From Vreelandella piezotolerans (GTDB lineage: Bacteria > Pseudomonadota > Gammaproteobacteria > Pseudomonadales > Halomonadaceae): a stretch of DNA of 64,000 nucleotides. The DNA lies in NCBI RefSeq assembly GCF_012427705.1, contig NZ_CP048602.1:992001-1056000 (forward strand), given 5' to 3'. Made by a program: the position numbers and the translations under genes. The notes under the pieces were generated by a model. It did not search any database and was not told the origin of the DNA. It saw only the letters and a list, made by a program, of their open reading frames with translations. Of this stretch, positions 10,901-37,714 are shown one piece after another (position 1 is the first letter of the stretch; every line of letters starts with the position of its first letter).

Positions 10901-10916
10901 AGCTGTTCGTGGGTGG

Positions 10917-21643: not shown

Positions 21644-22525
21644 ATGAATCATCGCCAACCACGTTGGTTGCGTGCAGCCCTATCGGCATGCGTGCTGTTC
21701 GCGTCATCTCATGCGATGGCGCAAGACGACCCCATTACCGCCGAGCTAGCGCGTATCGAACAGGCGCTGGACGCGCGTATTGGCTTTGCCGCGCACAACC
21801 TAGCCACGGGCCAGCGTTGGGAAGTGAATGCCGATGAGCGCTTTGCGATGTCCAGTACCTTCAAAACCCTGGCCTGCGGCGCGCTACTGGAGCAGGTAGA
21901 TGAAGGGCAGTTAGCGCTGGAGACCGAGGTGAGTTTTGAGGAATCTGACCTAGTGACGTACTCCCCGGTGACTGAGCAGTATGCGGGCCATCAACCGATG
22001 ACGCTGTTTGAGCTGTGCGATGCCACCATGACGACCAGCGATAATACCGCTGCTAACCTCGTGTTACAGGCGCTAGGCGGGCCGGAGGCGGTCACGGCCT
22101 TCGCACGTAGTATGGACGATCCTATTACTCGGCTAGACCGCTATGAAACTGAGTTGAACGAAGCCACTCCGGGGGACGAGCGCGACACCACCACGCCCAA
22201 CGCTATGCTGGCCACGTTAGAAAAACTGGTGCTTGGCGATGTCCTAGCGGATGAGTCTCGGCAGCAGTTAGAAGCATGGATGAAAGGCAATGCCGTTGCG
22301 GATGGCCTCTTCCGTGCCGCCATGCCGTTTGATTGGGTGATCGCAGACCGAACTGGCGCAGGTGGTTATGGCTCCCGCTCGATTACCGCGATTATTTGGC
22401 CTCCAGAGCAACCACCCACGGTGGCGGTATTTTATATCACCGACACCGAGGCCTCGTTTGAAGAGCGCAATGCAGCCATTGCCTCGCTAGGGGAAGTGGT
22501 GCAAGCCACTTTAGCAGACGAATAA
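21644..22525 (+). CDS. bla: class A beta-lactamase, RTG type
   Basis: A 293-residue periplasmic serine beta-lactamase. Signal peptide about 1-26 (ending AMA). Active-site elements: S71-T-F-K74, S132-D-N134, the omega-loop E168-T-E-L-N, and R236-T-G238 in place of the usual KTG. C78 and C125 could form the disulfide common to class A enzymes. Arg at the KTG position is known from carbenicillin-hydrolysing CARB/PSE-type enzymes, so a penicillinase role is inferred; the spectrum cannot be read from sequence. Net composition is acidic, as expected in halophiles. It has its own terminator and no mobile element next to it, so it looks like a resident chromosomal gene. Confidence 0.92.
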   Translation: MNHRQPRWLRAALSACVLFASSHAMAQDDPITAELARIEQALDARIGFAAHNLATGQRWEVNADERFAMSSTFKTLACGALLEQVDEGQLALETEVSFEESDLVTYSPVTEQYAGHQPMTLFELCDATMTTSDNTAANLVLQALGGPEAVTAFARSMDDPITRLDRYETELNEATPGDERDTTTPNAMLATLEKLVLGDVLADESRQQLEAWMKGNAVADGLFRAAMPFDWVIADRTGAGGYGSRSITAIIWPPEQPPTVAVFYITDTEASFEERNAAIASLGEVVQATLADE

Positions 22526-23485: not shown

Positions 23486-24205
23486 TTAGCGGTGTTGGTA
23501 AAGCCACTTAATATCCACGCCAAAAGAGTAAATCAACGTCACCAACGCGCTGAACGCCAGCAGTCCCGCTAACAGCGGTGAGGTCAGCGGCGTTAGCGCC
23601 AGCAGCATCGCCACGACCTGCCAGACGCACACGGCTTTGCGGCGGTAGCTGTCATTGAGCGGCGCCTCCAGCCAAGGGAAGGGAAGGCTAGCGGCCACGA
23701 ATAAATAACGCATGCCGCCAATCAGCAGCACCCACAGCCCCAGCCCCTCTTCCATGATCAAGCCAACACACAGCAGCATGATCAGCAGGGCATCCAGTTC
23801 CATATCGAAGCGTGCCCCAAAAGATGAGTGGCAGCGAGTGCGGCGGGCGATCCAGCCATCCACGCCGTCCAGTAATAGTGCGATGACCGAGACGCCCAAC
23901 CATAGCCAAATGGCGTCGATAAAGGCGTCATTCACCAGCGCGCCCGCCACCAGAGCGACCAGCACCGCGCGCCCCAGTGTCACCCGGTTGGCCCAACCCA
24001 GCGGGCCATGAGGCCAAAACACTAAGACCAATCCGCTGATCAGGGCATAAAAGGCAATGGCCACCCACCAGTTGGCTGCGCCGGGCAGGAGAGGCGCGAG
24101 CAGCGTCCCAAGACCTGCCAATAGTAGCGCGCCTACCAGCAGTTCGATGCTGCTGCACAGTCGCTTGGGCAGGGGAAATGGGGAGGAATTAGACACAGGC
24201 GGCAT
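23486..24205 (-). CDS. CDP-alcohol phosphatidyltransferase family enzyme
   Basis: A 239-residue integral membrane enzyme with about six to seven hydrophobic segments. The metal/CDP site DGVDGWIAR, then eight residues, then GARFDMELD gives the full DGxxARx8GxxxDxxxD signature of CDP-alcohol phosphotransferases (residues about 119-142). These move a phosphoalcohol from a CDP-linked donor to an acceptor alcohol. The acceptor is unknown. It is transcribed divergently from the dehydrogenase/PTPS/glycosyltransferase operon, with 260 bases between, so it probably belongs to the same pathway and could attach its product to a lipid or polyol. Confidence 0.85.
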   Translation of the reverse strand: MPPVSNSSPFPLPKRLCSSIELLVGALLLAGLGTLLAPLLPGAANWWVAIAFYALISGLVLVFWPHGPLGWANRVTLGRAVLVALVAGALVNDAFIDAIWLWLGVSVIALLLDGVDGWIARRTRCHSSFGARFDMELDALLIMLLCVGLIMEEGLGLWVLLIGGMRYLFVAASLPFPWLEAPLNDSYRRKAVCVWQVVAMLLALTPLTSPLLAGLLAFSALVTLIYSFGVDIKWLYQHR

Positions 24206-24464
24206 GGTGGCTCACGTAGCGGTATCGTCGACCGCAGTTGAAATTAATGATGCAATAATTTATCTATGTACCATTATTGTATAGGGTGTATGGTAGTCAG
24301 CATCCCCAAAAGTTCCCTCATTAAACAATGTTGAAGGTTGGCAAGCGTTAATAGACCGATTGCTTTTCTACGCTAAGCTATAGGTGAGCCATTGAAAAGT
24401 CGCCATATCTTAGTCACGTTAAGATCAACGGATGGAAACAGCGCTTCAACGATAAGGAAATGTC
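24206..24464. promoter_or_regulatory. divergent promoter region of the pterin/pyrimidine cluster
   Basis: This 260-base AT-rich gap lies between divergent genes and must hold both promoters. An inverted repeat TACCAT (24269-24274) / ATGGTA (24290-24295) encloses TTGTATAGG, which could be a promoter element, so it is a candidate operator. No promoter can be assigned with confidence. Confidence 0.45.
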
Positions 24465-25445
24465 ATGTCGGCGCCTAAGACGGCCATGGCTTTTTGGGTA
24501 ACACACCCAGGCCAGGGCCAACTGCAGCAGGAACCGCTGCCCACGTTAGGTGAAGCAGAGGTGCACGTTCGTGCCCTGTACAGCGGCGTTAGCCGTGGCA
24601 CGGAATCACTGGTGTTTCACGCACGCGTGCCGGACAGCGAAACCCAGCGCATGCGCGCTCCTTTTCAAGCTGGAGAGTTTCCCACTCCGGTGAAATACGG
24701 TTATTGCAGCGTCGGCCGGGTCACCCACGGGCCTGACGCGCTTGTCGATAAAACCGTGTTTTGCCTACATCCCCACCAGGATCATTATGTGGTGCCTGCC
24801 GATATGGCAGTGCCCGTGCCCGATAACGTGCCCGCGCAGCGCGCGGTGCTCACTGCCAACATGGAAACCGCGCTCAACGGCGTATGGGATGCCAACCCCA
24901 TGCTGGGCGAGCGTGTTTGTGTGGTGGGGGCGGGTGTCGTGGGCGCGCTGGTGGCGTATTTGTGCGCGCGCATCGCGGGGGTCGAGGTCACGCTGGTCGA
25001 TATCAATCCCGAGCGTGAAACCTTGGCCCAAGCCCTCGATGTACCGTATGCCCTGCCTGAGCAAGCCCCGAACGATCAAGACTGTGTGATTCATGCCAGC
25101 GGTCATCCCGACGGCCTGCGTTTGGCCATGTCGCTCGTCGGCAATGAAGGCCGTGTCATCGAGATGAGCTGGTTTGGTCAAGGAGAGGTGTCGCTGCCCC
25201 TTGGCGGGGCGTTCCACTCCCAGCGATTGACACTGCGTGCCAGCCAAGTGGGTCAATTGCCAGCCAAACTCCAGCCGCGCTGGAACTATCGCCGTCGCTT
25301 GAACGTGGCGCTTCGCCTGCTGGCCGACCCTGCCCTTGAGGCGTTGATCAGCAGTGAGTGCGATTTTGCCGATTTCCCCGAACGAGCCCCGGCGCTGTTT
25401 AGTCCACAGAGCACGGCGCTCTGTCACCGAATTCGCTACCCCTAA
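24465..25445 (+). CDS. BchC-like medium-chain dehydrogenase
   Basis: A 326-residue MDR oxidoreductase. The N-terminal part reads YSGVSRGTESLVFHARVP and FQAGEFPTPVKYGYCSVGRV, a pattern like that of BchC (bacteriochlorophyllide dehydrogenase) rather than classic zinc alcohol dehydrogenases; the usual catalytic Cys-Gly-x-Asp motif is absent. The nucleotide fold VCVVGAGVVGALVAYLCARI (near residue 150) and an acidic residue after the second strand (LVDINPE) suggest NAD(H). First gene of a four-gene operon with PTPS-like, glycosyltransferase-methyltransferase and flippase-like genes. It could oxidise or reduce a hydroxyethyl or sugar-like side chain, which is inference. Confidence 0.75.
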   Translation: MSAPKTAMAFWVTHPGQGQLQQEPLPTLGEAEVHVRALYSGVSRGTESLVFHARVPDSETQRMRAPFQAGEFPTPVKYGYCSVGRVTHGPDALVDKTVFCLHPHQDHYVVPADMAVPVPDNVPAQRAVLTANMETALNGVWDANPMLGERVCVVGAGVVGALVAYLCARIAGVEVTLVDINPERETLAQALDVPYALPEQAPNDQDCVIHASGHPDGLRLAMSLVGNEGRVIEMSWFGQGEVSLPLGGAFHSQRLTLRASQVGQLPAKLQPRWNYRRRLNVALRLLADPALEALISSECDFADFPERAPALFSPQSTALCHRIRYP

Positions 25446-25478
25446 TCTTTCAACCGTTATTTGCTTACGGGAGTTGCC

Positions 25479-25877
25479 ATGTACCGTTTATGCGTTCGCG
25501 ATCACTTCATGATTGCCCACAGTTTCAAAGGCGAGATCTTTGGCCCGGCCCAGCGCACCCACGGGGCTACTTACGTGGTCGACGTCGTGTTTCAGCGCCC
25601 AGAGCTGGATCAGGATGGCTTGGTGATCGACATCGGTCTAGCCAGCGAAACCGTCAAAGAAGTGTTGGCGGGCTACAACTATCGCAACCTCGATGAGGTC
25701 AGTGAGTTGTCCGGCCAGAACACCACCACGGAGTTCATGGCGAAAGTGATCTTCGACCAGCTCGCTGCGGCCATCAAGGCGGGCCGTATGGGAGAAACGG
25801 CCAAAGGCCTAACCCAAATGGAAATCAAACTGCATGAATCCCATGTGGCCTGGGCCAGTTACGAAGGAGCGCTATGA
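25479..25877 (+). CDS. divergent 6-pyruvoyl-tetrahydropterin synthase family protein
   Basis: A 132-residue PTPS/QueD-fold protein. Recognisable elements are the first zinc His (H14 in FMIAHSF), the second (H28 in THGATYVVDVVF), the NTTTEFMAKVIFD helix and the terminal acid E in IKLHESHVAWASYEG. Two key features differ: the usual HGH pair is HGA (third zinc ligand position is A30), and no catalytic cysteine precedes it (FGPAQRT). It may therefore bind a pterin-like ligand with a changed reaction. ATG at 25479 follows CGGGAG; the stop overlaps the next gene (ATGA). Location in a cluster with GTP cyclohydrolase II supports a pterin or pyrimidine substrate. Confidence 0.8.
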   Translation: MYRLCVRDHFMIAHSFKGEIFGPAQRTHGATYVVDVVFQRPELDQDGLVIDIGLASETVKEVLAGYNYRNLDEVSELSGQNTTTEFMAKVIFDQLAAAIKAGRMGETAKGLTQMEIKLHESHVAWASYEGAL

Positions 25878-27808
25878 ACCAGCGATTGACGTTACTGGTG
25901 GCGGGGGATCCCAACCAGCGCACCGGCGGTTATATCTACGATGCACACATCGTTGACGCGCTGCGCGAGCAGGGGCTGTCGGTGGATGTGGTCGGTCTGG
26001 AGGGGCGCTTTCCTCAAGCCGATGACACGGCCAAACGTGCGCTTGCCAGCGCGTTGGATACGTTGGCCGATGGCGAGCGAGTCATTATCGACGGTCTAGC
26101 CATGGGCGCACTGCCTGACGTGGTGGCGCGCCATACGGATCGGTTGGATATCACGTCGCTTTTGCATCATCCGCTGGGAGATGAACAGGGGCTCTCCAGT
26201 GAAGAGCAGCAGCAACTTCACCGCAGCGAACTCACCGGGCTTGCTGAAGTCGCCCGGATCATCGTCACCAGCCGCTTTACTGCCCGCCGTTTGAGCGAAC
26301 TCGCGAGCGATTACTCCCTGCCGATTACCGCGCCGATTACTGTCGTGGAGCCGGGAGTTGCCCAAGCGCCGGTCAGCCCCGCACCTGCGGCGGGTGACAC
26401 CATCCGCCTTTTGTGCGTGGCCACGCTGACGCCGCGCAAGGGGCAGGATGTATTGGTCAAGGCGCTGGCGCGAGTGGCTAGCGAACAGTGGCAGTGTGAC
26501 TGCTACGGCGGTGTCCGCGATACGGCATTTAGCGCCAGCGTGCAGCAGCTCATCGATGAGCATCGCCTTGCCGAACGCATCACCCTACACGGTGAGTGTG
26601 ACGCCGACACTCTCGAGGCGGCTTACCAACACGCCCATGCACTGGTGCTGCCTTCTTGGTACGAAGGTTACGGCATGGTGGTCACCGAGGCGTTGGTCCA
26701 TGGCCTGCCGGTGATTACCACGACCGGTGGTGCCCTGCGCGATACCTTGCCAGAAGGCGCGGGTATTAGCGTGGCGCCGGGCGATGCCGACGCGCTCGGT
26801 GCCGCCATCGATAATTTCTGTTCCAACGAAGCGCTGCGAACCGAGCTGCGAGCGGGCGTTGCGCTGGCGCGGGGAGAGCTCAACGATTGGCAGGCGGCGG
26901 GCGTTGAGTTTGCCAAGGCATTGAAGGACGAAGGAACGGCTGAACTCACGGCGGGTAGTCAGTTTGCCGCTAGCTGGCTGACGCTGCGCGAAGCGGTCGA
27001 TGGTCACGCCAGAAGCGAGGCGTTGGTCAGTCGGCTCGATGCGTGGCTCGCGACTTGCGAAGCGCCTGTGACGCTGGCGGACTTAGGCTGTGGGCGGGGC
27101 AGCAATGTACAGTTTCTTGCGCCTCGGTTGAGCGGTGCGCAGCGCTGGGCGCTGTTCGACCATGACGATGCCCTATTGCGCGAGGCGCGTCGCCGGGCCA
27201 TGCCGTTGCACGATGCCACAGGCCAACCGCTACAAGTGGAAACACACTGCACATCACTCGCGACTCTCGAGCATCCCGCCTTGCAAGCGGCGGATGTCGT
27301 CAGTGCGTCAGCGCTCATCGATTTGGTGTCTCAGCCATGGATCGACATGCTGGCCCAGCAGTGTGCTGCGCATCGGCAGGCGCTGCTGGTGAGCTTGAGC
27401 GTGACCGGCGAATGGTGCTTTACGGATAGGGATCAGCAGCCCATCGACGACTCGGAAGATCGCTTTGTATTGGGGCTATTCAACGCGCATCAACAGCGAG
27501 ATAAAGGGCTAGGTGAGGCGCTGGGCGGCGAGGCCCACCGGGCGCTCTACCACGCCCTGGCGGCGCAGGGGTATGACGTAGAGGAAGCCTCCACGCCCTG
27601 GCGGCTTGCCGCGGGTAGCCACGCGTCTCAGCCGCTCGTCAGTTCGCTGATCAACGGCTGGGCGGAAGCCGCCACCGAGCAGGCCCCCGACGCCGCCATG
27701 CGGATTGCCGAGTGGCGTACCGCACGCCTGGATGCCGTGGAGCGCGGCCAAATAGGGGTATGGGTGGGCCACCGTGACCTGTTGGCGCTGCCCGCGGTGA
27801 AGGGTTAG
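25874..27808 (+). CDS. glycosyltransferase family 4 - methyltransferase fusion
   Basis: A 644-residue two-domain enzyme. Residues 1-355 are a GT-B glycosyltransferase: an N-terminal lobe starting TLLVAGDPNQRTGGYIYDAH, the donor-site strand LLCVATLTPRKGQDVLVKAL (near 180) and the GT4 motif SWYEGYGMVVTEALVHGLPV (near 261). Residues about 375-640 form a class I methyltransferase with SAM motif I in LADLGCGRGSNVQFLAPRL (near 402) and the acidic motif II FDHDDAL. The fusion implies that one acceptor is glycosylated and methylated. It overlaps the PTPS-like gene by four bases and is followed two bases later by the flippase-like gene, so the operon is tightly coupled. Confidence 0.85.
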   Translation: MNQRLTLLVAGDPNQRTGGYIYDAHIVDALREQGLSVDVVGLEGRFPQADDTAKRALASALDTLADGERVIIDGLAMGALPDVVARHTDRLDITSLLHHPLGDEQGLSSEEQQQLHRSELTGLAEVARIIVTSRFTARRLSELASDYSLPITAPITVVEPGVAQAPVSPAPAAGDTIRLLCVATLTPRKGQDVLVKALARVASEQWQCDCYGGVRDTAFSASVQQLIDEHRLAERITLHGECDADTLEAAYQHAHALVLPSWYEGYGMVVTEALVHGLPVITTTGGALRDTLPEGAGISVAPGDADALGAAIDNFCSNEALRTELRAGVALARGELNDWQAAGVEFAKALKDEGTAELTAGSQFAASWLTLREAVDGHARSEALVSRLDAWLATCEAPVTLADLGCGRGSNVQFLAPRLSGAQRWALFDHDDALLREARRRAMPLHDATGQPLQVETHCTSLATLEHPALQAADVVSASALIDLVSQPWIDMLAQQCAAHRQALLVSLSVTGEWCFTDRDQQPIDDSEDRFVLGLFNAHQQRDKGLGEALGGEAHRALYHALAAQGYDVEEASTPWRLAAGSHASQPLVSSLINGWAEAATEQAPDAAMRIAEWRTARLDAVERGQIGVWVGHRDLLALPAVKG

Positions 27809-27810
27809 CC

Positions 27811-29736
27811 ATGAGCGGGCACTGGTTACGTCGGCCATGGGTGCAGCGCGGCATCGTCAGCGCGGCGCTATTGGCGGCGGTGGCCCTGTGGGTAGAGCCT
27901 GCCGCCATTCTGGCCGAGGTGAAACGCTTCGCGCCCGAATGGGTGCTGGCGGCGTTAGCCATCAGTGTGCTGCAGGTGATGCTCAGCGCTTGGCGTTGGC
28001 AGTTCACTGCTGGTCGGGTAGATGTGCCGCTGCGATTTCGTTATGCCCTGCGCGAGTATTACTTGGCGCTGTTGGTCAATCAACTGCTTCCGGGGGGCGT
28101 ATTGGGCGATGCGGGACGCGCCCATCGTCATGCTCGACAAGCTGCATCCAAGGGAAGCGCCTGGCGAGCGGTAGTCATCGAGCGGGCCTCGGGGCAAATG
28201 GCCGTGGTGGTGCTGACCCTGGTGGCACTGACGGCCTCGCCGCTGTGGCACGCCGCGCTGGGTGGCCCGCTGCTGTTCGGGCTGGTCGTCGGTGTGGCGG
28301 CACTGCTCTTGGCTGCGATCGCTCTGGGCGTTTGGTGTCGCAGCCCGAAAGGGCCTGCACTGCCTCAGTGGTGCATCGCGCTGGGACGGGATGTGCGCCG
28401 TGGACTGCTGGCGCGTCGGGCATGGCCGCTGCAGTTGGCCTCTTCGCTGGCCATCGTGCTCAGCTATGGCGGGGTGATGGTGTGCGCCGCCCGAGCCATG
28501 GGTAGCGAGATGCCCGTGTTCGACCTATTGGCGCTGACCCCCGTATTGCTGCTGGCCATGTTAGTCCCCTTATCGATTGCGGGCTGGGGCCTGCGGGAAG
28601 GCGCGGCTGCCGCTATTTGGGTCTTGGTGGGGTTGCCAGCCGCGCAAGGGGTTGCGATCTCGTTGGCCTACGGTGTCCTGGTGCTGCTCTCTAGTCTGCC
28701 GGGCATATGGGTGGCGTTGGCTAAACGTGGTCGCGCCACCCCTTCTACAGGTTCTACATCGACAGATTCCACGCCCTTTGGCCCGACCGCTGCAGGTGGG
28801 CTAGACGTCGCGCAGCATCACGTCGAACAGCGTGTCGTCGCCACACCGGAACGAGCGCATCGTGGGGCGCAGCGCGCTCTCCAGCGTCTCGATGGGCGTC
28901 ATTTGCAGGCCGGGCCTGCCGGAGCCGATCAGCAGCGGGGCTACCATCAGATGCAGTCGATCAACGCAGTATGCCTCGATGAATTGGGAAATGGTGACAC
29001 CGCCGCCTTCTACCAGCACACGTGTGAGCCCACGTTCCGCCAGCAGCGTAATGACCTTCGCTGGGTCGAACTGGCCGTGGGCATTCAAGGCCAGCACGCA
29101 GTGCTCCGCGTGGCTGGGCGCAGTCGTCACGTCTGGCCCAGTAATGTGCAAGGTCTTGACCTCGCTGCTGCGAAACAGCGCAAGATGACCGGGCACGCGA
29201 CCACGAGGGTCGAGGACGACTCGCGTCGGGTGGCGGCCAGTGACATGGCGAACGGTGAGCTGGGGGTTGTCGGCCGCTGCAGTACCCGCACCGACCACGA
29301 CCGCATCGGCCAGCGCGCGCAGCCGATGCAAATGCACGATGCTTTCATGGCCGTTGATGTAATGGGAGTGGCCGCTTTCCGTGGCAATTCGCCCATCCAA
29401 ACTCTGCCCCAGCTGGGCGACGACCCAGCGGGGTTGCAACGCCAGCGGCGTCAGGCAGTCCAAGGCTGTCTGGGCTTGGGGCGTGACGGCGTGCGGCGAC
29501 TGCCACGCGCCGTCGCGGGTGACCGAAAGATCCGCCTTGATAGAGGTGCCGTCGCTTTGGGCGAGCAGCCACTGCCAAGCGGTATCGAGATCGATCGAAT
29601 GGGATGTACTACTGGAGTCGGGCATGACGCCTCCACACTGAAAATAACCTCAGATCATGCGGGGCCATGTTGCCCAACGCAAGCAACCTTTGCCCATACC
29701 ATTAGGCAACCTGGAGGCCTACATGTATCAAATTGA
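27811..29736 (+). CDS. lysylphosphatidylglycerol-synthase-TM/flippase-like membrane protein with run-on C-terminus
   Basis: The first about 310 codons encode a polytopic membrane protein (roughly eight segments) of the UPF0104/LPG-synthase transmembrane type: YYLALLVNQLLPGGVLGDAG and VPLSIAGWGLREGAAAAIWV are the family motifs. Such proteins accompany glycosyltransferases and may flip or present lipid-linked substrates. Family similarity ends near base 28740, followed by a Ser/Thr-rich tail (PSTGSTSTDSTPFGPTAAGG); the frame then stays open to 29736, antisense to the whole RibD-like gene. No stop codon occurs where expected. A one-base shift near 28740 would end it at TAG 28802-28804. The formal frame is given here, but the extra 310 codons are probably not a real domain. 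Confidence 0.6.
   Translation: MSGHWLRRPWVQRGIVSAALLAAVALWVEPAAILAEVKRFAPEWVLAALAISVLQVMLSAWRWQFTAGRVDVPLRFRYALREYYLALLVNQLLPGGVLGDAGRAHRHARQAASKGSAWRAVVIERASGQMAVVVLTLVALTASPLWHAALGGPLLFGLVVGVAALLLAAIALGVWCRSPKGPALPQWCIALGRDVRRGLLARRAWPLQLASSLAIVLSYGGVMVCAARAMGSEMPVFDLLALTPVLLLAMLVPLSIAGWGLREGAAAAIWVLVGLPAAQGVAISLAYGVLVLLSSLPGIWVALAKRGRATPSTGSTSTDSTPFGPTAAGGLDVAQHHVEQRVVATPERAHRGAQRALQRLDGRHLQAGPAGADQQRGYHQMQSINAVCLDELGNGDTAAFYQHTCEPTFRQQRNDLRWVELAVGIQGQHAVLRVAGRSRHVWPSNVQGLDLAAAKQRKMTGHATTRVEDDSRRVAASDMANGELGVVGRCSTRTDHDRIGQRAQPMQMHDAFMAVDVMGVAAFRGNSPIQTLPQLGDDPAGLQRQRRQAVQGCLGLGRDGVRRLPRAVAGDRKIRLDRGAVALGEQPLPSGIEIDRMGCTTGVGHDASTLKITSDHAGPCCPTQATFAHTIRQPGGLHVSN
28801..29625 (-). CDS. RibD C-terminal-type (DHFR-like) reductase
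   Basis: A 274-residue protein whose residues about 65-270 match the RibD C-terminal reductase: VVAQLGQSLDGRIATESGHS, INGHESIVHLHRLRALADAV, VGAGTAAADNPQLTVRH, and LVEGGGVTISQFIEAYCVDR. These enzymes reduce the ribosyl group of diaminopyrimidine intermediates to ribityl with NADPH. The deaminase half of RibD is absent; the first 60 residues are unlike it. It is on the opposite strand between the flippase-like gene and ribA-like gene. Within this cluster it probably acts on the product of the neighbouring GTP cyclohydrolase II homologue, in a pathway separate from housekeeping riboflavin synthesis. Confidence 0.85.
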   Translation of the reverse strand: MPDSSSTSHSIDLDTAWQWLLAQSDGTSIKADLSVTRDGAWQSPHAVTPQAQTALDCLTPLALQPRWVVAQLGQSLDGRIATESGHSHYINGHESIVHLHRLRALADAVVVGAGTAAADNPQLTVRHVTGRHPTRVVLDPRGRVPGHLALFRSSEVKTLHITGPDVTTAPSHAEHCVLALNAHGQFDPAKVITLLAERGLTRVLVEGGGVTISQFIEAYCVDRLHLMVAPLLIGSGRPGLQMTPIETLESALRPTMRSFRCGDDTLFDVMLRDV

Positions 29737-30826
29737 ACGCGCCATTTTCGATATTCGTCGCGGTTTACCGGTCGTGATCAGCAGCGGTGAGCAGCGCCTT
29801 CTGGTCCAAGCGCTAGAGGGTAGCCGTTCGGTGGATACCCTGGCCCAGCTGGCGGGTGCGCGCCCTGCGCTGGTGCTCACGCGGCATCGTTTGGAGGCCA
29901 TGGGCATGTCGCTGAGTGCAGAGGCCGCCTGCCTGCCGTTGGCAGAACACATTGGCGAGCGCGAGCTGCATCAACTGGCCGTGGCTGACGCTGGCAAAAA
30001 GCCCAGTGCGCTGTTGAGCGGCTTGAAACCCGCTGGCGTCGCCGAGCGCGGGGCAGTGGCCCTCATGCGCCGAGCACTGCTGATCCCTGCCGCGTTAACC
30101 GCTCTGGTGAGTGAGGATGCTCGCCACGACATTGACAAACATATTGCCCAAGGGCGGCTACTGGAGGTCAACGCTGACGATGCGCATAAGTGTTTGGCGG
30201 GTGCGCCGGGTATGCTAAAGCGGGTGAGCGAAGCCAATATTCCGTTGGAAGATGCCCCCAATAGTCGCTTCGTGCTGTTCCGTGAACCGGATGGTTTGCG
30301 TGAGCATGTGGCCGTGGTCATCGGCCAGCTCGATGATGTGCAGGGTCCGGTACCGCTGCGTATGCATTCGGCGTGTTTGACCGGTGATTTGTTTGGCAGT
30401 CTGCGCTGCGACTGCGGTGAGCAGTTGCGCAACGCCGTGGCGGATATTCAGGCCATGGGTGGCGGTGTGCTGCTCTACTTGGCCCAAGAGGGGCGCGGGA
30501 TCGGCTTGGCGAACAAGCTGCGCGCCTACACGCTGCAAGATAGCGGACTGGACACCGTCGATGCCGATCAAGTGCTGGGCTTTGGCGACGACGAGCGCCA
30601 GTACGCCGTGGCGGTGGATATGCTGAACGCGTTGAGTATCGATCAAGTGCAGCTACTCACCAACAATCCGCTGAAAATGTCAGCCCTGAAAGAGGGCGGT
30701 ATCGAAGTGGTGTCCCGCCAAGCGCTATATGGCAGCGTAACGGATCACAACCACCGCTACCTAAGTGCCAAAGCCAGCCGAGCGGGTCACTTTTTGGATG
30801 AGGTGCTCGAGAGTCGCAGCCGTTAA
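29723..30826 (+). CDS. GTP cyclohydrolase II with degenerate RibB domain
   Basis: A 367-residue protein. The C-terminal half (about 195-365) is GTP cyclohydrolase II: zinc cysteines in CLTGDLFGSLRCDCGEQL (from about residue 218), the GTP-site motif YLAQEGRGIGLANKLRAYTL, and LLTNNPLKMSALKEGG. The N-terminal 170 residues begin IERAIFDIRRGLPVVISSGE, recalling RibB of bifunctional RibBA, but the acidic catalytic loop (DDEDRENEGD-type) is missing, so that half is probably inactive. ATG 29723 follows CTGGAGG. Its stop overlaps the convergent creatininase-family gene. Likely product is the diaminopyrimidinone ribotide from GTP, feeding this cluster; a role in ordinary riboflavin synthesis is the alternative. 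Confidence 0.88.
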   Translation: MYQIERAIFDIRRGLPVVISSGEQRLLVQALEGSRSVDTLAQLAGARPALVLTRHRLEAMGMSLSAEAACLPLAEHIGERELHQLAVADAGKKPSALLSGLKPAGVAERGAVALMRRALLIPAALTALVSEDARHDIDKHIAQGRLLEVNADDAHKCLAGAPGMLKRVSEANIPLEDAPNSRFVLFREPDGLREHVAVVIGQLDDVQGPVPLRMHSACLTGDLFGSLRCDCGEQLRNAVADIQAMGGGVLLYLAQEGRGIGLANKLRAYTLQDSGLDTVDADQVLGFGDDERQYAVAVDMLNALSIDQVQLLTNNPLKMSALKEGGIEVVSRQALYGSVTDHNHRYLSAKASRAGHFLDEVLESRSR

Positions 30827-31623
30827 CGCTTGCCCGCCGCTGGCGCTCCCAGTGGCGGTAGTCGAGCGGTTTCCACAATGACCTGAGCAAGCTGGTAGGC
30901 ATAGTGGTGGACGAGCCGTTCACCCAGTGCGGCGTTAGCGTGGCTGGCATCTCCAGCCACGCCATGTTCACTCAAATCTTCCCCTAACCAAGCAAAGGCA
31001 GCGCTACCCTCGGGGCTGACCAGCGCGCCTTCCGCAGGCATGGCTGGAGCAGCAGGCGTATAGTCATCGAGAGTGACGAGTTGCGGTGCTAAGTGCTGCA
31101 TCATCGCCGTCTCCAGCAGCCCGCCATGCAGTCCATAACGTAGCTCATCGGCATTCATGGCGCCCTCTAAAGGCGGCAATCGTGTATAGGTCGCTTTGAC
31201 TACGCGCATGTGACAGCGCCGCCGAAGCGTGAGCGCGGCTAGATCCATCACCGCTTTATTCCCGCCGTGACTATTAATCAGCACGAGCTTACGAATGCCT
31301 GTACGGGCAATGCTCTCGCCGTACGCTTCCAGCGTGGCAATAGCCAGCGGTGCGGGCAGGCTCAATGTGCCTGCGAAGCTTGCATGCTCGTCGCTGGCCC
31401 CTACCGCGATGGCGGGTAGACACAGCACCTCGACATCCTTCGCCAGACGCTCGAGTTGTACCAGCATGTCGGCCTGCAGCCCTTCACCAATGATGAGGTC
31501 GGTGCCCAAGGGTAGGTGGGTGCCGTGCTGCTCGATGGCACCTAAGGTAATGACCGCGACCGGGTCGTGCTGGGCAAGGGCATTCAGTTGAGGGGCGGTC
31601 AAGTGTTGCCAATGATAAACCAT
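30823..31623 (-). CDS. creatininase-family amidohydrolase (ArfB-like candidate)
   Basis: A 266-residue metal-dependent amidohydrolase. Ligand residues visible: E31 and H33 in GAIEQHGTHLPLGTD, D42 in the same motif, His in INSHGGNKAVM (near 118) and Glu in GGLLETAMM (near 168). Besides creatininase, this family includes ArfB, the archaeal formamide hydrolase acting on the formylaminopyrimidine product of GTP ring opening. Its position next to a GTP cyclohydrolase II gene (stops overlap by three to four bases) makes a similar pyrimidine-deformylating role attractive; that is inference. It starts a minus-strand run with FkbM, OpgH and OpgG genes upstream. Confidence 0.82.
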   Translation of the reverse strand: MVYHWQHLTAPQLNALAQHDPVAVITLGAIEQHGTHLPLGTDLIIGEGLQADMLVQLERLAKDVEVLCLPAIAVGASDEHASFAGTLSLPAPLAIATLEAYGESIARTGIRKLVLINSHGGNKAVMDLAALTLRRRCHMRVVKATYTRLPPLEGAMNADELRYGLHGGLLETAMMQHLAPQLVTLDDYTPAAPAMPAEGALVSPEGSAAFAWLGEDLSEHGVAGDASHANAALGERLVHHYAYQLAQVIVETARLPPLGAPAAGKR

Positions 31624-31675: not shown

Positions 31676-32449
31676 TTAGGAGGTGAGCAGCGGGTGATCG
31701 CTACGACAGGCGTAGATGTCGCCTGAGGCGAGCTGCTCAGCGCCTTCGGCTAACCAAGAGGCCATCTCCTCCGGAGTTAACCAAGTAGCAAAGCGGAACT
31801 GACGTTGCTCGCCAGCGATGGCATTGAAACGGTAGTCGCCTAGCCGGTTGACCTCTGCCAGGCAGGCGTGAGTGACATCCAGCATGCCTGCCACGAACTC
31901 CATCGATAAAGCGGCTACCGGGCAGGAAAGACCTTGCAACACCTCCGCCTCGAACCCCTCTACGTCGATTTTGATAAAGCGGGGTTCGCCGAAACGTTCG
32001 ATCAAGGCATCCAAGGTGGTCATCTCGACCTGTAGCGTCTCTTCCCAGCGCACCCGTTGAAAGCCAGCGTTGCGCTCGCCCACGTGGCGGCGCCATTCGG
32101 TGGCAAGCGTCGAAAGAGTAGGGTTACCGACGCTAATGGCAATCTCCGCATGACCTGGAGTGGGGCCAACCGCCAGCGGCAGCAGTGTAATGTGTGGGCT
32201 TTTTAGCAGCCGTTGAAACCATTTGGCCAGCGCTGGCTGGGGCTCCAAGGCGATGACCTGGGCACCCAGCGCTTGAAACGCGGCGCTGCGGTCGCCTAGG
32301 TGGGCGCCAATATCGAAAGCGATATCGCCGGGCACTAGAAAGGGCTGGTAGAGCCGCTTCAAACTGCGTTGCCGCCCAGGCCGCCAATAGATGAACAGGG
32401 AACGGGCCAAGCCGCTGGCGCTGCGAAGTTGCTGAAGCGTAGAGGGCAT
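31676..32449 (-). CDS. FkbM-family methyltransferase
   Basis: A 257-residue SAM-dependent methyltransferase of the FkbM type. Motif I is DIAFDIGAHLGDRSAAFQAL (near residue 42), followed by VIALEPQPALAKWFQRLL, and the FkbM hallmark FIKIDVEGFEAEVLQGL near residue 155. FkbM enzymes usually methylate sugar hydroxyls. The start codon abuts the opgH stop with no gap, so it is the third gene of an opgG-opgH-fkbM operon, suggesting that it methylates an osmoregulated periplasmic glucan or a related envelope sugar. Confidence 0.87.
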   Translation of the reverse strand: MPSTLQQLRSASGLARSLFIYWRPGRQRSLKRLYQPFLVPGDIAFDIGAHLGDRSAAFQALGAQVIALEPQPALAKWFQRLLKSPHITLLPLAVGPTPGHAEIAISVGNPTLSTLATEWRRHVGERNAGFQRVRWEETLQVEMTTLDALIERFGEPRFIKIDVEGFEAEVLQGLSCPVAALSMEFVAGMLDVTHACLAEVNRLGDYRFNAIAGEQRQFRFATWLTPEEMASWLAEGAEQLASGDIYACRSDHPLLTS

Positions 32450-34420
32450 TTAATGGGGTTCCTTCGCGCGTGAAACGGTCGACGTTTGTGACGACTTTCC
32501 GGGTCTTAAGAGTTGGCAAGGCATGTCGCCATACAGCTCACTGGGGGGGATATTCAGCGTGAGGTCGCCGTCCATGTTCAGCGCTGCAGGGCTGCGTGCC
32601 GTCAGATCGGCAAAATCTTTGAGGAGCGCCGGTTTCAGGCTAATGCTAGGCGTATGCAGCAACCCTAGCCGATGGCTCACCACGCCCCCCCAGGTACCGC
32701 TACTGGAGTACTTTACCAACGGTGCGGCGGCCACGAGCCCGAGCCAAGCAGGGGTCAACCAGCCGAACGCCGAGGGTGAAAACAGCACCATCACGCCCGC
32801 CCACAGCGCACCGCATAGCGTCATCCATCCGGTATGCCGCCAGGTTTCACGCCAGCTCAACGAGCGCTCGCCGCGATGTTGGGTTTGCCAGTCAATGGCA
32901 CGACCAATCAACACATTGATGATGAATAGGCTGTGCCACGCCATCATCAGCGGCGCAATGAGCGCGGCAAATACGATTTCGAGCAGCGTGCTGACCACCA
33001 ATTTGAAGCGCCCGCCAAAGGCGTGGGGGCACTGGCAGAAGGACAGCAGTAGGCCGAGTAGTTTGGGGGCCATCAGCATGCCGAGCGTGGTGCTCAATAG
33101 CCACAGCGAGAGCGCCTTGGGCAAGACCGGCTCGGTCGCCCCATCGATGGCGTGGTAGCCCACCATCAGGCTGGTACACACCAGCAGCCCCAGCCAGACC
33201 AGCGACGACAAGTAAGCAAACGCGCCAAAAAAGAAATGCAGGCGACTGATGACGTGAAAGCCCGCGCCCGTCAACAGGCGCAGGTGCTGAAGATTGCCCT
33301 GGAGCCAGCGGCGGTCGCGCTTGGCGAAGTCGAGTAGGTTGCTGGGCATGGCTTCGAAACTGTTGCGCGAGGCGCTGGCGTGGGGGTCGCGCCGGGACAG
33401 CGCTGCCGTTGCCGACGTATCCAGTAGCACCTGCCAGCCGCCACGTCTCAACAGAGCCGCTTCCACAAAATCGTGGCTCAACAGCTCGCCCCCTAGCGGC
33501 GGTTTGCCGGAGAGCGTTGGCAACCCTGCGTGGGCCATGAAGGCGCGGGTGCGAATGATCGCATTGTGCCCCCAATAGTTGGCAGCGTCGCCCTGCCAAA
33601 AGCTTTGGCCCGCTGCCAGCATCGGGCTGTACAGCGCCGAGGCGAGCTGGGTAAAACGGCCAAACAGCGTGCGCTGGCCAACGGGAATGGGCACGGTTTG
33701 AATCAGGCCCACGGTGGGGTAGCGCTGCATTTGGTGCACCATGTGCAGCAGCGTATCGCCGCTCATCAGGCTGTCGGCATCCAGGACGATCATGTAGTCG
33801 TAGCGGCGGCCCCAGCGACGACAGAAGTCGGCAATATTGCCTGCTTTGCGCTCGTGGTTATTGGGACGACGGCGGTAGTGCACTGCCATCTGGCCAGCCA
33901 TACGTTGCTGAAGCGCAGCCACGTGGGCGGCTTCTTCGTCGGCTTGGGTCGGGTCTTGGTTATCGCTGAGGATGAACACTTCGAAGTGCTGACCGATGAC
34001 GCGGGCGGTGTCCTCGCCCTGTGTGCTTGGCTGTTGAAGCAGTGAGCGGCAAGTAGCCTCCAATCCGGCAATGGTGGGAATGGGCGGCTCGGCGTAAATC
34101 GGCATGACCAGCGCCGTCCGGCTGACCAAGCGACTGGCGGTCGGTCGCTCTGCCGTCAAGGGTTTGAGGCTAAGCGGGTCGAGACGCAGCGCACAGATCA
34201 CAAAACCGCAAATGGCCCCCCAAAAAGCCAGCGCAATCCAGCTGAAGGTGAGGCCAAATAGCGTCAGCATGGCGATTTGCCAGCCCAGCGCGAGGTTGGT
34301 CACTACTTGCACCATGGCGGCGCAGCCCAGCAGGCTGGTACCAATGACCAGCGTGGCTAGCAGTGCGCGCCGAGCGTTGAGCCACGGTATGGACGGCATT
34401 AACGAAGGTGGATTACGCAT
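32450..34420 (-). CDS. opgH: glucan biosynthesis glucosyltransferase H
   Basis: A 656-residue processive inner-membrane glucosyltransferase for the backbone of osmoregulated periplasmic glucans. GT2 elements are VLDADSLMSGDTLLHMVHQM (metal-binding Asp pair near residue 230), the second acidic region, and RDRRWLQGNLQHL (the QxxRW-type motif near residue 385). About eight transmembrane segments flank it. It is shorter than the E. coli protein (about 850 residues), lacking most of the N-terminal cytoplasmic extension. ATG 34420 overlaps the opgG stop by eight bases; a longer in-frame start at 34462 is possible but less likely. Confidence 0.92.
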   Translation of the reverse strand: MRNPPSLMPSIPWLNARRALLATLVIGTSLLGCAAMVQVVTNLALGWQIAMLTLFGLTFSWIALAFWGAICGFVICALRLDPLSLKPLTAERPTASRLVSRTALVMPIYAEPPIPTIAGLEATCRSLLQQPSTQGEDTARVIGQHFEVFILSDNQDPTQADEEAAHVAALQQRMAGQMAVHYRRRPNNHERKAGNIADFCRRWGRRYDYMIVLDADSLMSGDTLLHMVHQMQRYPTVGLIQTVPIPVGQRTLFGRFTQLASALYSPMLAAGQSFWQGDAANYWGHNAIIRTRAFMAHAGLPTLSGKPPLGGELLSHDFVEAALLRRGGWQVLLDTSATAALSRRDPHASASRNSFEAMPSNLLDFAKRDRRWLQGNLQHLRLLTGAGFHVISRLHFFFGAFAYLSSLVWLGLLVCTSLMVGYHAIDGATEPVLPKALSLWLLSTTLGMLMAPKLLGLLLSFCQCPHAFGGRFKLVVSTLLEIVFAALIAPLMMAWHSLFIINVLIGRAIDWQTQHRGERSLSWRETWRHTGWMTLCGALWAGVMVLFSPSAFGWLTPAWLGLVAAAPLVKYSSSGTWGGVVSHRLGLLHTPSISLKPALLKDFADLTARSPAALNMDGDLTLNIPPSELYGDMPCQLLRPGKSSQTSTVSRAKEPH

Positions 34421-35942
34421 TGGGATACCACACGTAGTTCCAGGTTTCGGTGACGGGCTCACCGTCTCTCATCAAACGCAAGCGTATATCGCTCGGCTGG
34501 GGGCTGGGTGGAAGCCTGAACGTGGCGCGTCGGCCGTGATGGGGGAGTACTTTGATTTGGGGCAGTAGCGCTTCGCCATCGCGCACGCTGATATCCAGTG
34601 AGAGCTCTGCATCGGCCGCTAACGTCTCTAACGCGCCGCCGCTAAAATCGACCACGAACTGGCGCTGCTCGGCGGATGGGGAGTCCGCTTCACCCGGTAC
34701 GGCGGCGCTGCCATGCCGAGTGCGTATCACTTTTCCCAGTGCGTGGGCGTCGGGCTGCTCGTTCAAAGTGTAAGTGCGGTAGTGCAGGCGCCGAGAGTCA
34801 CCGGCGTCGAGCGCATCTTCGGCGACCCAGTAAGCCACGATGTTGTCGTGGGTTTCGTCAGGGGTGGGTATTTCCACCAGCTCCACGTGACCTTTTCCCC
34901 ATGCCTCCAGCGGCTCGACCCACTGGCTAGGGCGGCGATGGTAGTTGGCTTCCAGGTCCAAGTAGCGGTCGAAGCGACGTTCGCGCTGCATCAGGCCAAA
35001 GCCTTGTGGTGCATCATCGACGAAGCTCGACACACGGACCTCACTGGGGTTGCTCAGCGGTCGCCAGATCCACTCGCCGCTACCGGTGTGCATTAAAAGA
35101 CCATCGGAGTCATGCACTTGAGGGCGAAAGTCATCTGGCCGCTGGGCGCTCGCTTCTCCAAAGGTGAACATACTGGTCAGTGGGGCGATGCCGACTTTTT
35201 CGATATCTTCCCGGGCAAAGATCTCGGCTTCTATGTCGGCTTCGGTGTGCGCCCCAGGGGTGAGCGTGAATCGGTAGGCACCGCTGAGCGACGGGCTATC
35301 CATCAGCGCCATGAGCGTGACGCTCTCGGCGTCGCTGTCTGGCGTGACTAGCCAAAACTCACGAAAGGCAGGGAATTCTTCGCCCTGGGACGAGGCGGTG
35401 TCGATCGCCAGCCCCCGGGTGGATAACCCGTAGGCTTGATGTTGGCCCACTAAACGAAAGTAGCTGGCGCCGAGAAAGACGGAGAATTCATCCGCATAGT
35501 CGGGATTATTGAGCGGATAGTGGAGACGAAATCCGGCGTGTCCGCTGCCGCTCAGGTCGTGCTCCAGCAGGTCGCTGGCGTCGCCATCGTAGCGAAAATC
35601 GTCGGTGGTGAAGTCGAGCGGGACGACCTCACCGTTTTCGACCAGATTGAGTGCCACCGGCGTTTGAAATAGAAACCCGCTGTGGAAGAGCTGTAGGCTA
35701 AAGGGGCTTTCCTCGCGCCAGTAGGCGCGCTCTGGGTTGAAGCGAATTTGTCGATAGCCATCGTAGTCAAGTGATCGTAGCGCTTCGGGCAACTGGGCGT
35801 CGGGAGCTGTATAGGGGGCAGCAGCTAATTGTTTGGCGCGTTCTATGACTTGTTGAAACACGGGATCTTCGCTGGCGGCAGCGGGAAGGGCAAGCATCCA
35901 ACTCAGTGAGACGATCCATTTTGCAGCCGTTCGACAATCCAT
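34413..35942 (-). CDS. opgG: glucan biosynthesis periplasmic protein OpgG/OpgD
   Basis: A 509-residue periplasmic protein required for branching or release of periplasmic glucans. Signal peptide about residues 1-24 (WIVSLSWMLALPAAAS). Family segments include FNPERAYWREESPFSLQLFH, SYFRLVGQHQAYGLSTRGLA, and the C-terminal Ig-like domain ending ETWNYVWYPN. The ATG at 35942 follows AAAGGAA and starts the signal peptide. First gene of an opgGH-fkbM operon. OpgG and OpgD are hard to tell apart; opgG is chosen because opgH follows directly. Confidence 0.92.
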   Translation of the reverse strand: MDCRTAAKWIVSLSWMLALPAAASEDPVFQQVIERAKQLAAAPYTAPDAQLPEALRSLDYDGYRQIRFNPERAYWREESPFSLQLFHSGFLFQTPVALNLVENGEVVPLDFTTDDFRYDGDASDLLEHDLSGSGHAGFRLHYPLNNPDYADEFSVFLGASYFRLVGQHQAYGLSTRGLAIDTASSQGEEFPAFREFWLVTPDSDAESVTLMALMDSPSLSGAYRFTLTPGAHTEADIEAEIFAREDIEKVGIAPLTSMFTFGEASAQRPDDFRPQVHDSDGLLMHTGSGEWIWRPLSNPSEVRVSSFVDDAPQGFGLMQRERRFDRYLDLEANYHRRPSQWVEPLEAWGKGHVELVEIPTPDETHDNIVAYWVAEDALDAGDSRRLHYRTYTLNEQPDAHALGKVIRTRHGSAAVPGEADSPSAEQRQFVVDFSGGALETLAADAELSLDISVRDGEALLPQIKVLPHHGRRATFRLPPSPQPSDIRLRLMRDGEPVTETWNYVWYPNA

Positions 35943-36118
35943 GGGCGAGTTCCTTTCGTGACCTGATAGAGTGGACAACACGTCATTGTGTGAAATGTTT
36001 AAACAAAACCTATACGCTTAGCAAGCTGTGTTAAAAATAGTGGTTTAACGGTTCAAGGCTCCAGGGCCTTCAATCGGTTATACCGCTGATGCTCTCCTCA
36101 ACGCTACTGGTGAAATGA

Positions 36119-37714
36119 ATGCGTCGTCTCCTCATTACGGCTTGTGCGCTGAATGTGCTGCTGGTGGCTCCGCTGTGGTGGCGCTTTGGCACGCTATCGC
36201 CCTTGATCGCCTGGGAAGCGTGGGTGATTGCCCCGGCCATGCTACTGCTACCGGCCGGTCGCTGGCGGCGCTGGTTGGGGAGCGGTGTCGTGAGCGCCCT
36301 GGCATTGGCAACGGCGACCAACCTTGGCGATGCCGCTACGCATACGGCGTTTGGCCGTTCGCTGAACCTTTATCTGGACGTGCCGCTCGTGCGCTCCATT
36401 TACCATTTACTAGTGGGTAATGTAGGCCAACTGGCGGCAATTTGCCTGATGTTGCTAGGCGGTGTACTGCTCATTGGCGTGCTGTGGCTCATGCTGCGCC
36501 TGCTACTGCCTGCTCGCCCTCCCACGCGCCGTGGTCGGGCGAGAAACGCGGCCGTCGTGTTGCTAGTGGTCAGTTCGAGTATGGCTCTGTTAGAGGTAAA
36601 TCACTATCGCCTAGTTCCCCAGGCCGCACTGCCGATGGTCGCCACTGCCCGTTTTCAGTGGGAACAGGTGGTCGATACGCACCGCGCTCGGCAAGCGTTT
36701 ACCGCGCAGTTGGAAGAGACGCCGATAGCGGCGCAGGTACTGCCAGGTTTGGCAGGGCGAAACGTACTACTGACGTTCATCGAGTCTTATGGTGTGTCTG
36801 CCCTGAAAGACCCTCGCTATAACCGCACACTGCTGCTCACCTTGGAAGACCTTAAGCGACGACTATCCCAGCGTGACCTGCACGTGGTATCGGGGTTGGT
36901 CGCATCGCCCATCCGCGGCGGACAGTCGTGGCTTGCCCATGCGACGACGCTAAGCGGGCGTTGGATAGACAATCAGCTTTGGTATCGACTGATGCTAGAG
37001 AGCGGCCACTCGACGATGATCGACGATTTTCGTGCCTCCGGGCAGCGCACGCTCAGCGTGATGCCTGCGATCACCCTGGCGTGGCCAGAGGGGCGTGCTT
37101 ACGGCTTCGACCAAATCGTCGCCGCAAAAGACATGCCCTACGAAGGGCCGCCGCTCAACTGGGTCACCATGCCGGATCAATTTACGCTCGACTATACTCA
37201 GCGCGAGCTGCTGGGTAACTCACCTCTGTTCGCCCAGATCGCACTGATCTCGAGTCACGCTCCCTGGACACCCATTCTGCCCGTGCTGGAAAACTGGTCG
37301 CTGGTGGGCGATGGCAGTCTCTATGCCCCTTGGGAGAACGCGGGTGATCCGCCCGAGGTGATCTGGCGAGATTTGGAGCGCATTCGCGACCACTATGCGT
37401 GGTCGGTGGACTACGCTGTTAGCGTGGCAGGACGCTGGGCCGAGCGCGTGGCCAATGAACAGACGCTGCTCATCGTGCTGGGCGACCATCAGCCCGCCCC
37501 GTTGATTACCGGCGACGAAGCCAGTGCTGCCGTACCGGTACATATCATCAGCGGCGATCCAGCACTGCTGGACCCTTTCAAACGGCGTGGCTTCGTGGAG
37601 GGGATGCTGCCCCCCCTAGCGCACCCGCAGGAGGCGCCGAGGATGAGCCAACTTCGCCACTGGCTGCAGCAGGACTTTGGCCCCGCAGCAACATCAGCAA
37701 GGACGACACCATGA
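36119..37714 (+). CDS. alkaline-phosphatase-superfamily membrane transferase (sulfatase/LtaS/OpgB-like)
   Basis: A 531-residue membrane enzyme: four to five N-terminal transmembrane segments (about 1-150) and a periplasmic alkaline-phosphatase/sulfatase-fold domain. Metal-site residues are seen in NVLLTFIESYGVS (Glu), near the nucleophile region VASPIRGGQSWLAHATTLSG, in ISSHAPWTP (His) and in VLGDHQPAPL (Asp-His). This architecture is shared by lipoteichoic acid synthases, OpgB phosphoglycerol transferases and phosphoethanolamine transferases. Diverging from opgG and followed by a GDP-mannose enzyme (ATGA overlap), it may decorate periplasmic glucans or the product of the neighbouring pyrimidine/pterin cluster with a phospho-substituent. 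Confidence 0.75.
   Translation: MRRLLITACALNVLLVAPLWWRFGTLSPLIAWEAWVIAPAMLLLPAGRWRRWLGSGVVSALALATATNLGDAATHTAFGRSLNLYLDVPLVRSIYHLLVGNVGQLAAICLMLLGGVLLIGVLWLMLRLLLPARPPTRRGRARNAAVVLLVVSSSMALLEVNHYRLVPQAALPMVATARFQWEQVVDTHRARQAFTAQLEETPIAAQVLPGLAGRNVLLTFIESYGVSALKDPRYNRTLLLTLEDLKRRLSQRDLHVVSGLVASPIRGGQSWLAHATTLSGRWIDNQLWYRLMLESGHSTMIDDFRASGQRTLSVMPAITLAWPEGRAYGFDQIVAAKDMPYEGPPLNWVTMPDQFTLDYTQRELLGNSPLFAQIALISSHAPWTPILPVLENWSLVGDGSLYAPWENAGDPPEVIWRDLERIRDHYAWSVDYAVSVAGRWAERVANEQTLLIVLGDHQPAPLITGDEASAAVPVHIISGDPALLDPFKRRGFVEGMLPPLAHPQEAPRMSQLRHWLQQDFGPAATSARTTP

Follow-up and report, generated by a model that had tools for sequence, protein, structure and literature searches.

A conserved PTPS-IV gene cluster of Vreelandella piezotolerans: a candidate dedicated GTP pathway and an open frame running antisense through its ribD-like gene

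Two questions are raised by a gene cluster of Vreelandella piezotolerans: what riboflavin-type genes, encoding a GTP cyclohydrolase II (GCH II, ribA) and a RibD-like reductase, do beside genes for a PTPS-fold protein, a glycosyltransferase, a methyltransferase and lipid-type enzymes, and why the open reading frame (ORF) of the flippase-like gene continues through the oppositely oriented ribD. The cluster lies at positions 23486-31623 of the stretch that we analyzed, a 64,000-nucleotide window (positions 992001-1056000 of a one-contig 3.95 Mb genome) whose nearest named relatives belong to Vreelandella and Halomonas. Its genes were called with Pfam and NCBIfam profile searches, and all those named in an initial annotation, made from the letters alone, are present with a Pfam match for each (Table 1). 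We propose that the cluster is a dedicated, non-housekeeping pathway unit and at the same time a noncontiguous operon in which ribosomes run through the antisense strand of ribD, a joint reading to which we give a probability of roughly two in three.

The initial annotation suggested a new pathway starting from GTP, and proposed a search for separate housekeeping riboflavin genes. Such genes are indeed present: the genome has three PF00925 matches (at 3.65 Mb, at 2.56 Mb and in the cluster) and two RibD_C matches (a 394-codon open frame at 2.56 Mb and the cluster gene), so that RibA, RibBA-type and RibD genes are found at 3.65 and 2.56 Mb. In a draw of 398 Pseudomonadota genomes (PTPS match threshold E<=1e-20), the PTPS subfamily occurs in 27, all of which have a GCH II match and 26 of which have RibD_C outside the cluster. 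Because riboflavin-type genes lie elsewhere in these genomes, the cluster is not simply a riboflavin locus, and a dedicated non-riboflavin pathway is likely.

Conservation of the gene set, the other genomic check proposed, was confirmed: the set recurs in Alpha-, Beta- and Gammaproteobacteria and on actinobacterial plasmids. The dehydrogenase is adjacent to the PTPS gene in 27/27 genomes of the draw. Twenty of these were taken with flanks; 16 of them belong to other families, each with complete flanks, and have within 9 kb of the PTPS gene a dehydrogenase (16), a GT4 glycosyltransferase (16), a methyltransferase (12, fused GT-methyltransferases being entered under glycosyltransferase only), a RibD-like reductase (13) and RibA (6), followed by MdoH (8), cytochrome b561 (7), FkbM (4), CDP-alcohol transferase (3), flippase (3), LtaS/EptA-like protein (2), YceI (2) and creatininase (1). 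Of 92 relatives in a scan of named genomes, 80 were kept: loci close to the window (L009-L058 in our numbering, with 74-94% identity in the PTPS) and a further 30 spread over Competibacteraceae, Kiloniellales, Rhodospirillales, Burkholderiales and additional groups. The PTPS gene is also present in 20 plasmid records; among the 10 examined the dehydrogenase is found in eight loci, one of which is a minimal set of dehydrogenase, PTPS, methyltransferase and RibD. This gene set and its linkage are direct observations, and the recurrence exceeds chance. The neighbourhoods come in two recurrent flavours: CDP-alcohol transferase, LtaS/EptA-like protein, flippase and FkbM characterize the first, MdoH beside the dehydrogenase the second. 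The glycosyltransferase and methyltransferase, fused in the window, are separate neighbouring genes in other lineages.

The protein that marks the cluster belongs to the FGPAQ subfamily (PTPS-IV), which lacks the catalytic Cys and one Zn-binding His. The F, G, A and Q of the signature are found in 61/61 aligned rows and the P in 59/61, while two His, Thr90, Glu91 and Glu126 never vary. By motif spacing, it is not a QueD/PTPS-I protein (CxxxHGH), as both the Cys position and the second His of HGH are Ala in 61/61 rows; plasmid records label PTPS-IV as a queuosine-pathway enzyme. The nearest solved structure is 3d7j, SCO6650 (window residues 4-138, E 3.6e-49). The ORF opens at TTG 25461, and 132-residue database relatives point to a start at 25479. 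Elsewhere in the same genome, two PTPS-like matches fall in one open frame of 381 codons (C1:1731978-1732724, minus strand).

RibA of the cluster consists of an N-terminal part without a Pfam match followed by the GCH II domain. Its ORF extends over 29657-30826, but ATG 29723, preceded by GGAGG, is probably the start rather than 29657. Of 65 loci that have a cluster RibA, 23 were aligned, the Halomonas/Vreelandella loci being thinned to every tenth plus L057 and L058; the non-cluster rows L168 and L169 failed to align over the GCH II domain. All three zinc Cys are kept (23/23), as is the catalytic Tyr (22/23, window included). An HSAC motif is found in 21/23 rows, versus HSEC in 12/12 short housekeeping RibA, which places a Glu-to-Ala change beside the first zinc Cys, at residue 239 of ORF 29657-30826. 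In a tree calculated without L168, L169, L003 and seven duplicates, the cluster and housekeeping kinds fall apart (96/90), the non-cluster group including cluster genes from genomes G395 and G341; a few copies located away from any PTPS gene side with the cluster kind.

Some of the family assignments first made for the other enzymes need correction. The RibD-type reductase has the reductase domain but no deaminase, RibD_C covering residues 66-247 of 274; its best solved match is 6p8c, a 2,5-diamino-6-ribosylamino-pyrimidinone 5'-phosphate reductase, and it stays under the TIGR01508 cut-off (99.3 vs 186.45 bits), which indicates a relative rather than an equivalog. The BchC-like gene does encode a medium-chain dehydrogenase/reductase (MDR), but it reaches only 46.9 bits against the BchC cut-off of 291.25, and no Cys of this 'zinc' dehydrogenase is conserved across 54 rows. 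The creatininase-family protein keeps its EQHG, TD, HGG and ET motifs (12 rows) and comes nearest to MftE, still under the cut-off (104 vs 172 bits). The CDP-alcohol phosphatidyltransferase motif lDg.DG..ARr..s.fGARfDME.DA is conserved (30 rows), and the methyltransferase keeps a DlGxGxG-like motif.

These families lead us to infer a dedicated pathway, distinct from riboflavin synthesis, whose product would be a pyrimidine or pterin that is glycosylated, methylated and linked to the envelope. The GCH II paralogue would open GTP to 2,5-diamino-6-ribosylamino-pyrimidinone phosphate, and the deaminase-less RibD-like reductase would probably reduce the ribosyl chain, so that the 2-amino group would be kept. 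PTPS-IV and the dehydrogenase may then rework a pyrimidine or pterin-like core, which the methyltransferase and GT4 would decorate, and the CDP-alcohol transferase, the flippase-like protein and the LtaS/EptA-like enzyme would attach the product to the envelope. Judging from family knowledge, the most economical order would be GTP, diaminopyrimidine, ribityl or pterin-like core, methyl and sugar, and envelope. These reactions and their product are predicted from sequence; the glycosylated, methylated product, already suggested by the initial annotation, is a fair reading of GT4 together with the methyltransferase and its motif. In Chlamydia, the RibA product is shunted to folate by TrpC (PMC9765610). 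This precedent would support a pterin outcome only by analogy, and the presence of a RibD-like reductase would speak against an Amadori route.

Other chemistries were considered. RibA might halt at the formylated pyrimidine (FAPy), like GTP cyclohydrolase III (GCH III), and leave deformylation to the creatininase-family enzyme, in the manner of archaeal ArfB. The FAPy-making GCH III of S. coelicolor is reportedly marked by Met at the Tyr105 position (work of Spoonamore and Bandarian). By this criterion the window RibA, which has Tyr, does not qualify, and only L136 has Met among the 23 cluster rows. The RibA of an S. fungicidicus plasmid cluster does have Met in place of Tyr, with the creatininase gene adjoining, and the Glu-to-Ala change of the proteobacterial cluster RibA also points this way. 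However, creatininase and RibA do not strictly co-occur, and the creatininase misses the ArfB cut-off by far (NF033501, 26.4 vs 180 bits). The ArfB-type role, evoked by the initial annotation, is thus not borne out, the more so as RibA retains the Tyr of GCH II, and we regard this route as unlikely. A back-up or regulated supply of riboflavin would fit the fact that RibA and RibD_C are riboflavin enzymes and that one genome, G047, has no other RibD_C, but it is improbable given the housekeeping genes elsewhere, the linkage to GT4, methyltransferase and lipid genes, and the absence from the scanned cluster genes of Pfam matches to deaminase, DHBP synthase, lumazine synthase and riboflavin synthase. 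Still less probable is a role in F420 or deazaflavin synthesis, suggested for PTPS-IV in an unpublished note mentioned in PMC5041015: a CofD-family match is present in only 3/27 PTPS-IV genomes and not in the own genome, and even these three may not be CofD, as this Pfam family also matches in E. coli.

The second question concerns the order flippase>, ribD<, ribA>, in which ribD lies reversed between two plus-strand genes. The flippase ORF spans 27811-29736, across the whole antisense strand of ribD, although its membrane domain ends near 28740, and its TGA overlaps the ribA ATG by 14 nt; the initial annotation had not listed this continuation. It reaches through the ribD domain in 47 of the 49 Halomonas/Vreelandella loci with both genes, and the exact 14-nt overlap recurs in 43/49 of them and in 51/67 family loci with a fused ORF. 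The Ile4 codon is ATT in 43/43 loci, a test that is weak alone since the loci were picked by that same stop.

A stop-free, codon-aligned antisense frame implies that ribD has no TTA, CTA or TCA. Indeed, over the 49 Halomonas/Vreelandella loci TTA and CTA account for 0/1571 Leu codons of ribD, compared with 18-27% in ten neighbouring genes, and TCA for 1/276 TCN codons. The other A-ending codons are about normal, with GTA, ACA, CCA, GGA and ATA within the range of the neighbours, GCA slightly below (9.0% vs 10.0-19.3%) and CGA above (11.1% vs 2.2-9.2%). In other genera (L225 and L121 being omitted from these groups), TTA and CTA are likewise missing where the ORF is fused (20 loci, 0/711 Leu; TCA 0/103) and where it is separate (11 loci, 0/323 Leu; TCA 0/58). 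Across loci outside the Halomonas/Vreelandella set, three own-family genera included, TTA/CTA make up 64/987 Leu codons of ribD, which is neighbour-like. With each ribD protein and the codon usage of the neighbours taken as given, a Halomonas/Vreelandella locus would have an open frame with a median chance of 6e-5 (maximum 0.1), yet 47/48 are open.

Openness also follows the presence of ribA. A wider family sample of 275 genomes has the flippase in 159, from which 40 loci were hand-picked by genus and frame length, 20 with a long frame, drawn from outside the own genus, and 20 with a short frame. Within this hand-picked sample, all 20 long frames run through ribD; among the short-frame loci, ribD is free of antisense stops in 11/12 with ribA downstream, and has one to six in 8/8 without it. 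Over 91 family loci, the frame is open in 80/83 with ribA downstream (67 fused, 13 in a separate ORF, including L029, a sequence with broken genes scored as open and separate) and in 0/8 without (Fisher 1.9e-9, which overstates independence as the loci without ribA come from two genera). In 11 of the 13 separate ORFs, all but L029 and L239, an ATG of the frame sits where the flippase stops: four overlap the stop by 4 nt, two by 1 nt, and five lie within 11 nt of it. At the other end, 5/13 frames overlap the ribA ATG by 4 nt. Openness of the frame, codon depletion and these junctions are plainly visible in the genomes.

What is conserved in this frame appears to be its openness. The fourfold-site divergence of ribD is 0.555 (1035 pairs), like that of ten other genes (0.48-0.60). 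The identity of the through-ORF tail between loci, relative to redrawn synonymous ribD codons (0.458/0.383), gives a ratio of 1.20, and the hypothetical antisense frames of the three control genes on which the comparison rests give 1.18 (dehydrogenase), 1.21 (RibA) and 1.16 (creatininase). Neither measure reveals amino-acid-level selection on the through-ORF. AlphaFold confidence (pLDDT) is 46-86 in blocks of the flippase domain and 21-35 from residue 311 on. Neighbour-like divergence, control-like tail identity and low pLDDT together suggest that openness, not sequence, is kept; translation itself seems to be selected, rather than the encoded protein.

An alternative is that the through-ORF encodes a functional overprinted protein under selection for its sequence, either a C-terminal domain of the flippase or, in two genera, a separate protein. 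The ORF is about 300-350 codons in most loci and recurs over several genera, and databases call one long protein, with 153 matches, most of the 120 listed being 600-677 residues (range 437-677 among those listed, shorter ones being excluded by a length filter). Nevertheless, the tail identity lies inside the control range of 1.16-1.21, and neither the fourfold-site divergence nor the pLDDT past residue 311 sets the tail apart as a folded, constrained domain, which makes this explanation doubtful. That the frame is open merely through GC-rich codon usage is hardly credible. The GC content at third positions is higher in ribD than in the other ten of the eleven genes (0.733 vs 0.625-0.698), and in high-GC genera the chance of an open frame rises to 0.8 per locus, a figure that also tempers the case for selection there. 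Codon usage in Halomonas/Vreelandella, however, makes openness rare by chance, only the three antisense-stop codons are missing from ribD, loci outside this set do use TTA/CTA there, and the frame is interrupted in all eight family loci without ribA. Such an explanation would need a bias specific to TTA, CTA and TCA in one gene, and is already contradicted.

We prefer the joint reading of a pathway unit and an operon. The plus-strand genes are tightly packed, since the PTPS stop and the start of the GT-methyltransferase overlap by four bases (25874-25877) and the latter stops 2 nt upstream of the flippase ATG. The dehydrogenase, PTPS, GT-methyltransferase, flippase and ribA genes would be co-transcribed as a noncontiguous operon enclosing the reversed ribD. 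Ribosomes leaving the flippase may continue through antisense ribD, either in the fused frame or by re-initiating at the start-stop junction, and the run would end at the ribA start, which would couple ribA translation and avoid Rho-type transcription polarity. Joint making of flippase and RibA would in turn support the single-pathway reading. The more specific proposition, that this is a translational relay in which three codons have been purged from ribD by selection, with a protein dispensable as sequence, in the service of an orphan GTP pathway, has in our view an even chance. Scans for promoters and terminators did no better on the real sequence than on shuffled versions.

Several observations weigh against the joint reading. 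Despite ribA downstream, the frame is interrupted in L050, L225 and L035 (the gene matches of the last being broken), and beyond the family 9 of the 12 loci that share this placement of ribD and have ribA downstream show an interrupted frame (L061, L065 and L132 being open), from which we take the relay to be a family feature. The only RibD_C match of G047, a 2.6 Mb genome, is the cluster one (C6:281526-282041), which might serve riboflavin there. The Streptomyces cluster RibA groups with the housekeeping rows in the tree, and HSAC-type RibA is also found outside a PTPS neighbourhood in G191 and G341. The gene set itself is variable: PTPS stands alone in 2/10 plasmid loci, 6/30 distant named loci have PTPS, glycosyltransferase and methyltransferase without dehydrogenase, and of the 16 distant neighbourhoods 10 lack RibA, 3 the RibD-like gene and 15 creatininase, none of which is thus universal. 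Where RibA is missing, a shared housekeeping RibA must supply the pyrimidine.

Table 1. Genes and frames of the cluster and its flank, numbered from the first letter of the window
Feature	Coordinates	Strand	Evidence
CDP-alcohol phosphatidyltransferase family protein	23486..24205	-	PF01066, 57 bits
MDR dehydrogenase, distantly BchC-like, without conserved Cys	24465..25445	+	Pfam/NCBIfam
PTPS-IV (FGPAQ) subfamily T-fold protein	25479..25877	+	PF01242, 89.9 bits
GT4 glycosyltransferase fused to class I SAM methyltransferase	25874..27808	+	PF00534, 94 bits; PF13649, 29 bits
Flippase-like membrane domain (LPG_synthase_TM)	27811..28740	+	PF03706, 142.5 bits
Through-ORF, in-frame flippase continuation, codon-aligned antisense to ribD	28741..29736	+	ORF analysis
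RibD-like reductase, RibD_C only	28801..29625	-	PF01872, 137.7 bits
GTP cyclohydrolase II paralogue, HSAC signature	29723..30826	+	PF00925, 185 bits
Creatininase-family amidohydrolase	30823..31623	-	PF02633, 206.6 bits
FkbM family methyltransferase, recurrent neighbour	31676..32449	-	profile searches
MdoH glucan glucosyltransferase, recurrent neighbour (8/16 random distant loci)	32450..34462	-	
MdoG periplasmic glucan protein	34413..35981	-	PF04349, 623 bits
Membrane alkaline-phosphatase-superfamily protein, LtaS/EptA-like fold, recurrent neighbour	36119..37714	+	

The last protein of Table 1 stays below the Pfam cut-off, with a weak Sulfatase match only, and its fold resembles the LtaS, EptA and EptC phosphotransferases; its gene recurs beside the PTPS cluster in distant lineages. 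YceI-type periplasmic genes are found beside the cluster in L059, L060, L061, L063, L065, L072, L118, L121 and L122, and cytochrome b561 genes in L080, L124, L127, L129, L130, L132, L134, L135, L137 and L139, hinting at a membrane or periplasmic redox link. No riboswitch was found for the cluster, as Rfam at the gathering threshold gave only a thiamine pyrophosphate (TPP) element in the window (10756-10907, minus strand), and a check for a defence role with PADLOC turned up just two matches, both weak and partial (E 4.7e-4 and 9.7e-4). A class A beta-lactamase at 21644-22525 (plus strand) meets the general NCBIfam cut-off, and is nearest to the RTG/CARB families while staying under their own cut-offs.

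The conserved gene set gives an orphan PTPS subfamily of proteobacteria and actinobacteria a testable context. The proposed relay would mean that codon choice in a bacterial gene is dictated by the opposite strand over much of a family, with the loci without ribA as a natural control, and it makes the tolerance of operons for reversed genes directly testable. It is also a warning that selection can act on a long antisense ORF even when no useful protein is encoded.

Part of this is already known, namely the association of PTPS-IV, RibA and RibD_C (without a product), noncontiguous operons and antisense overlapping genes. A full-text literature search, with most subscription papers outside its coverage, found no description of the whole gene cluster, and an antisense frame whose openness alone is selected, in association with a downstream gene, was not among the matches listed in a limited search, by which novelty is not established. 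S. coelicolor SCO6650 (3d7j) is a homologue of the window PTPS, and a similar gene order is seen in a streptomycete plasmid cluster that includes RibA and creatininase. SCO6655 is reportedly a GCH III making FAPy, from which the window RibA differs in having Tyr in place of Met. Mycofactocin resembles the proposed pathway in combining a creatininase-family protein with glycosylation and methylation of a small core, but the MftE cut-off is missed, the scanned cluster genes have no radical SAM match, and the mycofactocin core is a peptide where that of the window pathway would be GTP-derived.

For PTPS-IV (COG0720, FGPAQ), a neighbourhood with PF00925 and PF01872 has been described (node 62, 561 sequences; PMC5445326, PMC5041015), and the window cluster shares both the signature and this neighbourhood. 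The linkage as such is thus not new (PMC5445326), which qualifies the novelty suggested by the initial annotation. The available parts of these papers name no GT4, methyltransferase, dehydrogenase, flippase, CDP-alcohol transferase or product, and they read PF00925 as GTP cyclohydrolase I/FolE2, whereas it is GTP cyclohydrolase II in Pfam. The arrangement of an opposite-strand gene inside an operon (flippase>, ribD<, ribA>) resembles the noncontiguous operon (Saenz-Lahoya 2019, as described in PMC9239193), with the difference, as far as that description goes, that the antisense stretch of the window is an open frame, apparently translated and joined to the next gene. The antisense overlapping genes pop, ano and laoB likewise have a long ORF antisense to a known gene; at ribD, by contrast, selection appears to act on openness rather than on the encoded sequence, and is tied to the downstream gene.

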